37,897 nt of DNA from Acidimicrobiia bacterium (GTDB lineage: Bacteria; Actinomycetota; Acidimicrobiia; Spongiisociales; UBA5794). A program made the position numbers and the translations under genes. Shown piece by piece: positions 29,219 through 32,605 of the stretch (the first letter of the stretch is position 1; the number at the start of each line of letters is the position of its first letter). Under the pieces are notes generated by a model, which searched no databases, was not told the origin of the DNA, and was given only the letters and a program-made list of their open reading frames with translations. The stretch spans positions 1-37,897 of the forward strand of contig JAOZRW010000021.1 in the NCBI GenBank assembly GCA_029939995.1, given 5' to 3'.

Positions 29219-29861
29219 CCGTCCCGATCGCACCGGGGTTGTATCCCTCGGGAACGATGATGTCGGCGTACCGCTTCGATGGTTCCACGAACTGCAGATG
29301 CATTGGGCGCACCGTCTTCTCGTACTGAGCGAGCACGGAATCCACCGTCCGGCCGCGCTCGACGATGTCCCTCGTGAGACGGCGTATGAGCCGGAGGTCG
29401 GCATCGGTGTCGATGTAAACCCGCAGGTCCATCAGCTGGCGCAACGACGGTTCCGCGAGGATCAGGATCCCCTCGACCAGGATGACCGACTCGGGCTCGA
29501 CGTGCACCGTCTCGGCCGCACGCGTGTGATTGGCGAAGTCGTACACCGGCCGGTCGATCGCACGGCCCTCCCGGAGCGCCAGCAGATGCCCGACCAACAG
29601 CTCGTTCTCGAGCGAGTCCGGGTGGTCGTAGTTGATCTTCGTCCGCTCTTCGTACGTGAGGTGCGCCTGGTCCCGGTAGTACGCGTCGTACGGGAGTCGG
29701 GCGACGACCCCGGCCCCGACGATGTCGACGACGCTCTGGGCGATGGTCGTCTTCCCGGAACCCGAACCGCCGGCGATGCCGATGATGAGCGGATGTTCGG
29801 GATCTTCACCGTGGGGCCACGACGCCGCGTGGCCGAAGTGCTTCTCCAGGTCGAATGCCAT
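29169..29861 (-). CDS. udk: Uridine kinase
   Basis: 230-aa P-loop kinase phosphorylating uridine/cytidine to the monophosphates in pyrimidine salvage. GIAGGSGSGKTTIAQ is the Walker A motif (about 28-42). LPYDAYYRDQ and NYDHPDSLENELL are the uridine-kinase substrate segments, VYDFANHTR matches the family's YDF motif, and VILVEGILIL is the Walker B-like strand. RRLTRDIVERGRTVDSVLAQY is the lid. It is about 15 residues longer at the N-terminus than E. coli Udk. ATG 29861 has TAGAAT 8 nt upstream. Convergent overlap with the SGNH gene by 50 bp. Confidence 0.95.
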   Translation of the reverse strand: MAFDLEKHFGHAASWPHGEDPEHPLIIGIAGGSGSGKTTIAQSVVDIVGAGVVARLPYDAYYRDQAHLTYEERTKINYDHPDSLENELLVGHLLALREGRAIDRPVYDFANHTRAAETVHVEPESVILVEGILILAEPSLRQLMDLRVYIDTDADLRLIRRLTRDIVERGRTVDSVLAQYEKTVRPMHLQFVEPSKRYADIIVPEGYNPGAIGTVTSMIRHFLAERSASV

Positions 29862-29869
29862 GGATTCCG

Positions 29870-29875
29870 ATTCTA
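29870..29875 (-). promoter_or_regulatory. -10 element (TAGAAT) of udk
   Basis: TAGAAT on the minus strand ends 8 nt before ATG 29861. Confidence 0.5.
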
Positions 29876-29962
29876 GGCCCCCGTCGACCCCCGGTGCATC
29901 GCCGGCGCCTTCGCCATCTTCGTTGCCGCTTGTTCGACGGGATCCTCTACCAGAGCGAGCTG

Positions 29963-30361
29963 ATGACGCTCACACTCCCGGAGATCGACGACGCCCAACC
30001 GGCCGACGCTGCTCCCGAGCATGGAGAGAACCTCGCCGAGGGGGCGACCGCCGGTGACGCCGACGACGCCTTCATCACGATCGACCTGGGGTCTCCGCAG
30101 GACATCGCCGGCGTGGAGTTCCTGACGCGGACGACGGCGGACGACTCGGCGACGACGATCACGTTCTTCGTGACGGTCGACGACGGCGAACAGTTCGGAC
30201 CGTTCACCGCCGGCACTCCGGCCAACCCGGAGTTCAACGCTGCACCGTTCGTCGGGCAGGTGCTCCGTTTCGACGTCGAGAACAGCACCGGAGGAAACAC
30301 CGGTGCGATCGAGATCCGGGCGTTCGCCCCCGGGTCCATGTCCGGGGACGCGGGGGGCTGA
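29963..30361 (+). CDS. F5/8 type C (discoidin)-like domain protein; N-terminus probably displaced by frameshift
   Basis: 132 aa from ATG 29963. The sequence GENLAEGATAGDADDAFITIDLGSPQDIAGVEFLTR is typical of the first strands of a galactose-binding/F5-8-type-C jelly roll, followed by TTITFFVTVDDGEQFG and QVLRFDVENSTGGNTGAIEIRAF. Such domains bind carbohydrate or other surface ligands and are nearly always exported, yet this frame has no signal peptide. Another frame directly upstream (29898-29960) reads IAGAFAIFVAACSTGSSTRAS and then stops at a TGA overlapping this ATG (TGATG). That stretch looks like a lipoprotein signal with lipobox VAAC but lacks a start codon in frame. Either the gene is frameshifted or the two are coupled by chance. 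Confidence 0.6.
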   Translation: MTLTLPEIDDAQPADAAPEHGENLAEGATAGDADDAFITIDLGSPQDIAGVEFLTRTTADDSATTITFFVTVDDGEQFGPFTAGTPANPEFNAAPFVGQVLRFDVENSTGGNTGAIEIRAFAPGSMSGDAGG

Positions 30362-30380: not shown

Positions 30381-31145
30381 TCAGCGAAGTGTGATGTCCC
30401 CCGACATCGTGTTGATCGACATCGTGGCGGGGATCGACGGCGTCTCCCCCGAAGGCTCGACGAGATTCCGGAACTTCCCCGACCTCGTTCGTATGTCGGC
30501 GTCGATCGCCATCCCGGGCGCGAGGCCGACGTCGAGATCGCCCGACATGGTCCCGACCTTGAGCGACGAACCGGAGAATCGGCGGATTCTGACGTCGCCG
30601 CTGGTCGCGCTCACCTCGATCGAACCGTCGACGGTCCCGATCGAGGCATCTCCCGAACTCGTGGCGATCGACAGCCCTCCCCGCGCCCGGGCGACCCGGA
30701 CGTCGCCGGAGGAGGCCGCGAGTTGGGCCTCCCCCGCGAGATCGCCGATGGCGATGTCCCCGCTCGCGGTCTTGATCCGGACGCGTCCGCTGCATGCGTC
30801 GACGTCGACATCTCCCGAAGCCGCTTTCACGTCGACGTCCGACGTGGCGACGGCGAGCCGGACATCCCCGGAGGCCGTCCGACAGTGGAACGCCGTTCCC
30901 TGCGGCACGGTGAGCCGGATCGTCGGGCCCCGTCGGAACCACCTGCTGCTGCCGCGAGAGAAACGGATCGACACGATGTCTCCGGCCTGTGTGACGTCGA
31001 ACAAGCCCGTTTCCCGGTCGGCCCCGTCGATCACGACTCCGATGACACCCGGGGCTCCCTCGACGGCGACGATGTCGACCGACGGCGTCTCGACGACGAC
31101 CTGCGGCCGATCCCCCACGGTGAACTCTCTCTCGAACTGGTTCAT
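30381..31145 (-). CDS. DUF4097 family beta-repeat protein (putative adhesin-like)
   Basis: 254-aa protein of the DUF4097 right-handed beta-helix-like family. The C-terminal three quarters is a repeat of T/A-x-SGDV units: TASGDVRLAV, AASGDVDVDA, TASGDIAIGD, ASSGDVRVAR, TSSGDASIGT, ATSGDVRIRR, TMSGDLDVGL, TMSGDITLR. No signal peptide or lipobox is present (MNQFEREFTVGDRPQVVVETPSVDIVAVEG), so this copy appears cytoplasmic. The ATG at 31145 overlaps the RHH gene stop as ATGA. Such proteins often sit beside transcription or stress regulators; here an RHH protein is coupled to it. Molecular function unknown. Confidence 0.85.
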   Translation of the reverse strand: MNQFEREFTVGDRPQVVVETPSVDIVAVEGAPGVIGVVIDGADRETGLFDVTQAGDIVSIRFSRGSSRWFRRGPTIRLTVPQGTAFHCRTASGDVRLAVATSDVDVKAASGDVDVDACSGRVRIKTASGDIAIGDLAGEAQLAASSGDVRVARARGGLSIATSSGDASIGTVDGSIEVSATSGDVRIRRFSGSSLKVGTMSGDLDVGLAPGMAIDADIRTRSGKFRNLVEPSGETPSIPATMSINTMSGDITLR

Positions 31146-31598: not shown

Positions 31599-31718
31599 TC
31601 AATGCCCGTCGCCGGACCGGATGAGGCGCAGCGACGAGCGGCGCCGCTCCTCTTCGTCCCATCCGCACGACGTCTCGATCATGACCTGCACGACTTCCGG
31701 GGTGTTGTACCAGAGCAT
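31599..31718 (-). CDS. 39-aa small protein leading the RHH-DUF4097 operon
   Basis: Absent from the ORF track because of its size. It begins MLWYNTPEVVQVMIETSC and ends LRLIRSGDGH, with a central acidic/basic patch GWDEEERRRSSLR. An excellent Shine-Dalgarno (GAGAGGAG) precedes the ATG at 31718. The stop is 13 bp before the RHH gene start, which has its own GAGGGA. It starts about 36 nt after the predicted transcription start. The composition is that of a folded short helix-helix peptide rather than random translation. Function unknown; it could be a partner or leader peptide for the RHH protein. Confidence 0.62.
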   Translation of the reverse strand: MLWYNTPEVVQVMIETSCGWDEEERRRSSLRLIRSGDGH

Positions 31719-31760
31719 CGGGGCTCCTCTCTCCGTCACCCGTCATCGGGCGACATCGCC

Positions 31761-31781
31761 ATGATGTCATAGTGACATCAT
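31761..31781. promoter_or_regulatory. Perfect 9-3-9 palindromic operator
   Basis: ATGATGTCA, then TAG, then TGACATCAT: perfect 9-bp arms. It covers the -10 and most of the spacer of the predicted minus-strand promoter. It resembles a tandem half-site operator for an RHH dimer pair. The promoter-proximal GATGTCG at 31753-31759 (read on the minus strand as CGACATC) may be a further half-site. Confidence 0.7.
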
Positions 31782-31789
31782 TCTGTCAA
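31761..31789 (-). promoter_or_regulatory. Promoter of the micropeptide-RHH-DUF4097 operon
   Basis: On the minus strand, a consensus TTGACA (31784-31789) and CATCAT (31761-31766, 4/6 to TATAAT) are separated by exactly 17 bp. This is one of the few classical -35/-10 promoters visible in the window. Confidence 0.6.
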
Positions 31790-31820
31790 GATCTTTCGAT
31801 CCCAGCCGGGAACGCCCCGC

Positions 31821-31826
31821 TACACT
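31821..31826 (+). promoter_or_regulatory. -10 element (TACACT) of the thiamine operon
   Basis: TACACT lies about 7 nt upstream of the 5' end of the TPP riboswitch, giving a transcript that starts at the aptamer. Confidence 0.5.
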
Positions 31827-31833
31827 GGAATCG

Positions 31834-31941
31834 ACCACTCCGGGGAGTTCGGGAACGCCGAACTGAGAGGGCGGCCGATTCAGCATCGCTGTGAACGCCG
31901 TTGACCCGCCGAACCTGATCTGGATCATGCCAGCGGAGGGA
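31834..31941 (+). ncRNA. TPP riboswitch (THI element)
   Basis: The two conserved TPP aptamer halves are clear: CTGAGAGGG (31863-31871) for the pyrimidine arm, and ACCTGATCTGGATCATGCC (31913-31931) followed by AGCG for the pyrophosphate arm. The closing stem P1 can form between CTCC (31838-31841) and GGAG (31935-31938). The 3' strand of P1, GGAGGG, is also the Shine-Dalgarno for the thiN GTG start 5 nt downstream. Thiamine pyrophosphate binding should therefore hide the ribosome-binding site directly. The variable stem P3 (GGGCGGCC...) is typical in length. Confidence 0.93.
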
Positions 31942-31945
31942 GCGC

Positions 31946-32605
31946 GTGGAACGCTACACCGGCCGAGCAATCATCCTCTCGGGCGGAGACCCGCTCGAGA
32001 AGATCGCCGACGTCACCATCCCCGAGCACACACTCGTGATCGCCGCAGACAGCGGGCTCGCTCACGCCGGTGAACTCGGGCTGACGGTCGATCTCGTCGT
32101 CGGCGACATGGACTCCGTCGATCCTTCCGTGCTCGCCGACGCGGCAGCGCACGGGGTCATGATCGAGCGTCACCCGACGGACAAAGACCGCACCGACCTC
32201 GAACTGGCCGTTCATGCAGCGATCGATCGGGGGGCGGGCAGCATCACGATCATCGGTGCGCACACGGGACGCCTCGACCACCTCCTCGGAGCCATGGGGC
32301 TCTTCGCCGCCGTGGCCCCCCGTCTCGACGAGCTCATCTGGTTGGATGGGATCACCGACGTCATCGCCTGCTCCCCCGGGCGAACGATCACGGTCGCAGG
32401 CAACGCAGGCGAACAGGTATCCCTCATTCCGACCGGGTCCGATGTTCACGGGATCGCGACCGGCGGCCTGCATTGGCGGCTCGACGACGAGACGCTTCTC
32501 GCCGGGTCGACCCGGGGCCTCAGCAACACGATCGAAACCCCGCCGGCCTGGGTACGCGTCGGCGATGGAACTCTCCTGGTCCTGCACGAAAGGAATCCGT
32601 CGTGA
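31946..32605 (+). CDS. thiN: Thiamine pyrophosphokinase
   Basis: 219-aa enzyme transferring pyrophosphate from ATP to thiamine to make thiamine pyrophosphate, the ligand of the riboswitch in front of it. Family landmarks are ILSGGDPL, AADSGLAHAGELGLTVDLVVGDMDSVD (about 33-59), TDKDRTDLELAVHAA (about 78-92) and the IGAHTGRLDHLLG motif (about 102-114). The C-terminal substrate domain (QVSLIPTGSDVHGIATGGLHWRL) is complete. GTG 31946 is fixed by GGAGGG in the riboswitch P1 stem. The stop overlaps thiB as GTGA. Having this kinase first in a transporter operon fits salvage of imported thiamine. Confidence 0.95.
   Translation: MERYTGRAIILSGGDPLEKIADVTIPEHTLVIAADSGLAHAGELGLTVDLVVGDMDSVDPSVLADAAAHGVMIERHPTDKDRTDLELAVHAAIDRGAGSITIIGAHTGRLDHLLGAMGLFAAVAPRLDELIWLDGITDVIACSPGRTITVAGNAGEQVSLIPTGSDVHGIATGGLHWRLDDETLLAGSTRGLSNTIETPPAWVRVGDGTLLVLHERNPS

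Follow-up and report, generated by a model that had tools for sequence, protein, structure and literature searches.

The window, that is the whole 37,897-nucleotide stretch of DNA that was analysed, carries on its minus strand (31789-30381) a three-gene operon behind one promoter, encoding a 39-residue micropeptide, a ribbon-helix-helix (RHH) protein and a DUF4097 (toastrack) protein. The features of the locus are the following.

31784..31789, minus strand: −35 hexamer TTGACA, found by pattern match
31773..31780, minus strand: candidate operator box 1, TGATGTCA, lying in an inverted-repeat arm and belonging to a conserved box pair
31762..31769, minus strand: candidate operator box 2, TGACATCA, 11 bp from box 1
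31761..31766, minus strand: −10 hexamer CATCAT, overlapping operator box 2
31751..31758, minus strand: weak third box, CGATGTCG, matching in 6 of 8 letters and in the 11-bp register
31724..31729, minus strand: Shine-Dalgarno sequence GAGGAG of the peptide gene, read from the sequence
31599..31718 (stop included), minus strand: gene of the 39-residue micropeptide, MLWYNTPEVVQVMIETSCGWDEEERRRSSLRLIRSGDGH, based on family conservation, dN/dS and a low-confidence helix
31142..31585, minus strand: gene of the RHH protein, 147 residues, based on Pfam, fold prediction and alignment with Arc
30381..31145, minus strand: gene of the DUF4097 (toastrack) protein, 254 residues, Pfam PF13349
31831..31958, plus strand: TPP riboswitch of the divergent thiamine genes, a neighbour outside the operon and a marker of conserved synteny

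The promoter matches the pattern TTGACA-17-CATCAT exactly (31789-31761, minus strand), and shuffling gives a chance expectation of 0.05 such matches per window with at most one mismatch. In most relatives a TTGAC-type −35 also lies upstream of the boxes and the best −10 match is found with a 17-nt spacer, the commonest hexamer at this spacing being CATCAT (52 cases). The sequence-only reading had proposed this promoter, overlaid by perfect 9-bp inverted arms with a 3-nt spacer, and both the pattern match and an inverted-repeat scan agree with it. The coupling of the RHH and DUF4097 genes by ATGA is likewise as first read: the DUF4097 start codon overlaps the RHH stop codon (31145-31142), and the DUF4097 assignment has an E-value of 3.7e-22.

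The peptide reading frame runs from an ATG at 31718 to a TGA at 31599 and encodes 39 residues; a 46-residue version starting from an in-frame GTG was ruled out, since homologues align from the ATG and begin MLW. In the 50 family genomes searched the peptide lies directly upstream of the RHH gene and aligns from the ATG, and essentially every RHH copy of its own Acidimicrobiia family has the peptide ahead of it, with the consensus MLWYNNPExVxA...RxxLRL. Against the nearest relative dN/dS is 0.08, and most close peptide pairs fall between 0.07 and 0.3, the highest values being 0.45 and 0.88 (the latter for L001/L003). The short ORF with a strong Shine-Dalgarno sequence that had been picked out from the DNA is thus upheld by family conservation and purifying selection, and on these comparisons it is a real, if easily overlooked, gene retained in a group of uncultured actinobacteria, because it precedes essentially every RHH copy of the family and its dN/dS is low. 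A helix is predicted at residues 7-36 at low confidence (pLDDT 65).

When 296 genomes of the class were searched with a profile, strong peptide matches were confined to the family, once per genome, and a widespread stand-alone peptide gene was ruled out, as the sole match without an RHH gene (in G001) sits at an operon remnant. At this remnant (L078, G001:C178, about 1360-1720), which was identified by reading the sequence, a deletion took the RHH gene and nearly all of the DUF4097 gene, whilst the intact peptide MLRYNNPECVMAIHDARCPSTVHEGRHLMRLARSDSRPADN stays, together with the riboswitch, decayed boxes, the Shine-Dalgarno sequence and the end of the DUF4097 gene; its −10 element has decayed (CTTCAA), W3 of the peptide is R, and it is known from one metagenome assembly. 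Other families of the order have short, Shine-Dalgarno-bearing ORFs with different bodies in the slot of the peptide gene. Where the spacer between operator and RHH gene is long, such an ORF was found in 72 of 79 loci, against 27% after shuffling, a count made by a mechanical ORF rule whose misses include loci that plainly have the peptide (L007, L254), whose picks at L154 and L157 look wrong, and which also missed or mis-picked L152. When the family peptides are compared by profile with those of two other lineages, the alignments span the N-terminal ~20 residues (probability 82, 69 and 57%), which suggests that the peptides of different lineages share descent; a candidate N-terminal motif at the level of the order would be of the type M-x-[WF]-...-[VI]-x-A-[IL].

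Two architectures can be recognised across Actinobacteriota, with about seven switches between them on the tree. In Acidimicrobiia and a few other lineages the peptide gene occupies a gap of ~135-320 nt. In Streptomyces-type loci and several other lineages the boxes adjoin or overlap the RHH start codon and there is no peptide, and commonly the second box ends 10 nt ahead of the RHH start or runs into it; this placement of the boxes implies that the RHH transcripts of these lineages are leaderless. Among the loci that we take to be Streptomyces-type, L188, L191 and L218 have no peptide, and in their RHH-DUF4097 operons, apparently leaderless, boxes of the TGGTGCCA type abut the RHH start codon. 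The expectation that the peptide would precede RHH-DUF4097 pairs in other actinobacteria therefore holds for Acidimicrobiia and a few others but fails for the Streptomyces-type loci and several other lineages. The proposed three-component module fares similarly: in the Acidimicrobiia order the peptide has been kept under purifying selection and a DUF4097 gene lies downstream of the RHH gene in 146 of 148 loci, but the module is not universal, with RHH-DUF4097 pairs of the other architecture having the same operator layout and no peptide.

The inverted arms (31761-31769 and 31773-31781) are 9 nt long, 100% complementary and 3 nt apart, and are the sole inverted repeat in the 261-bp region scanned (31700-31960). 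Each arm holds an 8-bp box that is itself pseudo-palindromic (TGAYRTCA), and box 2 pairs with the third box (31751-31769) with 2 mismatches. With an HMM of the RHH protein, 152 distinct Actinobacteriota loci with enough upstream DNA were collected and scored for the pair TGRYRYCA-N3-TGRYRYCA, a pattern neutral between A and G at letter 3. At a threshold of at least 14 of 16 letters, the pair is present upstream of the RHH gene in 146 of the 152 loci, compared with ~1% of shuffles, so that the palindrome which the sequence-only reading wanted checked is kept across the phylum as a box pair. Distances between perfect boxes peak at 11 bp (n=153; 10 bp, n=9; 12 bp, n=4) and again at 22 bp (n=52), a third box in register at distance 22 being common among relatives, and the boxes occur in direct as well as inverted order. 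Because of these peaks, the palindrome is better described as two adjacent boxes of an array: the perfect arms are present, but the term is imprecise for short boxes spaced about one helical turn apart.

The box pair appears exclusive to the RHH gene. Across the 2.55-Mb genome TGAYRTCA-N3-TGAYRTCA has a single match at a tolerance of up to 1 mismatch, and this absence of a second pair rules out a genome-wide regulon at that stringency. Exact pairs in the Acidimicrobiia family number 21 sites in 19 of 50 genomes, every one on the contig that carries the RHH gene, and the reversed pattern gives 0 sites in the same 50 genomes.

The RHH protein consists of an N-terminal alpha-alpha-beta-beta domain (3-81) and a C-terminal ribbon-helix-helix (about 95-137). 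Its own Pfam matches, to HicB (22.1 bits) and TacA1 (21.7 bits; cut-off 21 each), are limited to residues 96-134, and its homologues match HicB, TacA1, Arc and RHH_1, as a strand-helix-helix DNA-binding domain. The predicted fold (pLDDT 84) matches AtaR (top), Arc and NikA, all at weak E-values. Residues 3-81 (31579-31343, minus strand) form a confident alpha-alpha-beta-beta prediction that is conserved across Actinobacteriota, for which fold comparison gave no convincing PDB match. The nearest named relatives are from Acidimicrobiia metagenome assemblies, with 78% identity of the RHH protein to that of Acidimicrobiia bacterium bin30015.

In a sequence profile, R96-I97-T98-L99-R100 of the RHH protein aligns with Q9-F10-N11-L12-R13 of Arc, where Q9, N11 and R13 contact bases (PMC12645479). 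Residue 98 varies together with letter 3 of the box: loci with Thr98 have a TGA majority in 93 cases, a tie in 6 and TGG in 0, loci with Asn98 have TGG in 19 cases and TGA in 1 (L203, with mostly TGA half-sites), and Ser98 loci are mixed (TGA 14, tie 9, TGG 1). L174 and L178 have Ala at this position and TGATATCA boxes, a possible third specificity class seen in two loci only. The Fisher value for the pairing, 1e-20, is uncorrected for kinship and overstates the case, since the tree needs only about four changes of residue 98 and holds few independent pairs (one on supported branches and four on the best tree, too few for a test). For the supported pair, ~9/10 random pairings show the operator changing together with the residue, and none shows a change in the opposite direction. 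The evidence that the RHH protein reads the boxes is thus good, not conclusive; it would provide a candidate binding site for a widespread RHH family, the companion of DUF4097 throughout Actinobacteriota, and Thr/Asn with TGA/TGG would be a candidate one-residue specificity switch.

Taken together, the locus is probably a vertically inherited, self-repressing chromosomal operon, with RHH dimers on the box array over the promoter. Dimers would bind the 8-bp TGAYRTCA boxes, which recur at 11-bp intervals across the −35 and −10 elements, as neighbours on the same face of the DNA in a MetJ-like manner, and once bound would keep transcription of the operon low. We infer binding and repression from comparative evidence, and the earlier proposal that the RHH protein represses its own promoter is strongly supported at this level, because the boxes are conserved at 11-bp spacing, are placed only at RHH genes and are paired with a base-contacting residue. 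The peptide would be dispensable for autoregulation as such, since many RHH-DUF4097 operons do without it. Either the peptide or the DUF4097 protein may be the effector, as the sequence-only reading had it. As selection falls on its amino acids it would act in trans, and as it is restricted to this operon its partner would be sought among the RHH and DUF4097 proteins; a plausible but tentative proposal is that it tunes repression by partnering, as a small regulator, either the N-terminal domain of RHH or the DUF4097 protein. The tuning is perhaps linked to the state of the envelope, because toastrack proteins recur in envelope-stress operons (PMC11237479). The narrower version, in which the peptide family of the order is a ligand gating the RHH repressor through the alpha-alpha-beta-beta domain and so controlling the toastrack protein, we regard as rather unlikely as it stands; if true, it would describe a peptide-gated RHH switch whose sister form in Streptomyces-type actinobacteria has no peptide and is apparently leaderless.

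Several features of the operon resemble known systems. MetJ binds tandem 8-bp pseudo-palindromic met boxes over promoters with an 8-bp period, and the boxes here are also tandem, 8 bp long, pseudo-palindromic and laid over a promoter, presumably with one RHH dimer per box; in contrast to MetJ, the period is 11 bp, exact pairs occur only at the protein's own operon, the N-terminal domain is a different one and there is no sign of a role for S-adenosylmethionine. The likeness to Arc lies in the alignment of R96-T98-R100 with Q9-N11-R13, whereas the protein here is a chromosomal, two-domain protein of 147 residues with another operator sequence. HicB and TacA (AtaR) provide the best Pfam matches of the RHH part and, for AtaR, the weak top fold match, but the operon has no HicA or GNAT toxin gene and is not mobile, and the HicB match is confined to residues 96-128 in the RHH part, leaving aside the predicted N-terminal domain that lacks a PDB match. 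A toastrack protein is shared with Lia/PSP systems (LiaG, DUF4097), although the LiaG model scores 57 of 285 bits, well below its cut-off, the regulator here is an RHH protein rather than a two-component system, and no PspA, PspC, LiaI-LiaF-TM or LiaRS partner was found among the operon and adjacent genes scanned. RiPP precursors have modifying enzymes encoded in the locus; besides the peptide gene, the operon itself has only those of the RHH and DUF4097 proteins.

Autoregulation by RHH proteins is of a known kind. The literature searched, which covered few subscription journals, gave no description of the conserved micropeptide, of the box array or of the two architectures. The same search found nothing joining DUF4097 with HicB, and what it found joining DUF4097 with ribbon-helix-helix proteins does not, in the passages covered, describe this operon. 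The locus would be a concrete, testable example of a bacterial micropeptide (<50 residues) that is conserved at a constant regulatory position, and its many natural variants and the sister form that lacks the peptide could serve as controls.

Three other roles for the peptide were weighed. It is doubtful that the peptide is the output of the operon, acting on the membrane or another cellular target with the RHH protein as governor and the DUF4097 protein as scaffold: its aromatic N-terminus (MLWYNNPE), the basic tails of many relatives and the recurrence of toastrack domains in envelope-stress operons would suit such a role, but the peptide has no obvious transmembrane stretch in its sequence and is itself not basic (net charge −2, the median across peptides being +4), and a membrane-active amphipathic helix is unsupported, the hydrophobic moment being no better than in shuffles (mean z 0.35).

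We consider it unlikely that the ORF is a cis-acting leader whose translation, and not its product, sets RHH expression by coupling or attenuation. The amino acids, those of a C-terminal RLxRL-like segment among them, are under purifying selection, the RHH gene has its own GAGG upstream, and the peptide persists without RHH in G001. The position of the ORF between promoter and RHH gene, often ending near the RHH start, is what such a leader would have, but the spacing, 13 nt here, ranges elsewhere from overlap to >100 nt, and so short a stretch leaves no room for an attenuator with its terminator/antiterminator.

Least probable is a miniature toxin-antitoxin module with the peptide as a small toxin, the RHH protein as antitoxin and autorepressor and the DUF4097 protein as accessory, for although the resemblance of the RHH domain to the antitoxin families HicB and TacA1, the first-gene position with autoregulation and the median peptide charge would be typical of one, the peptide and the DUF4097 protein match no known toxin family in Pfam, NCBIfam or PADLOC, there is no recognised adjacent toxin gene and no mobile, patchy distribution of the type II kind, the plasmids and phages searched gave no match, the peptide's amphipathicity is no better than that of shuffles, the operon keeps its place next to a TPP riboswitch in 13 of the 20 loci scanned (one in another family), and G001, its −10 and W3 changes notwithstanding, is a poor fit for a peptide toxin kept in check by RHH. 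The judgement that this is not an ordinary toxin-antitoxin pair thus gains support from synteny, from the lack of plasmid or phage copies and from a natural loss of RHH that spared the peptide.

The operon has neighbours on either side. Downstream, between the uridine kinase and DUF4097 genes and on the opposite strand to both, lies an ORF (29855-30361, plus strand) that matches the F5/8 type C domain (E 6.9e-07) and whose true start may be further in. Upstream, a thiamin pyrophosphokinase gene at 31946-32605 diverges from the operon together with the TPP riboswitch; the operon and thiamine promoters are apparently back to back, so that bound RHH might affect the thiamine genes as well.
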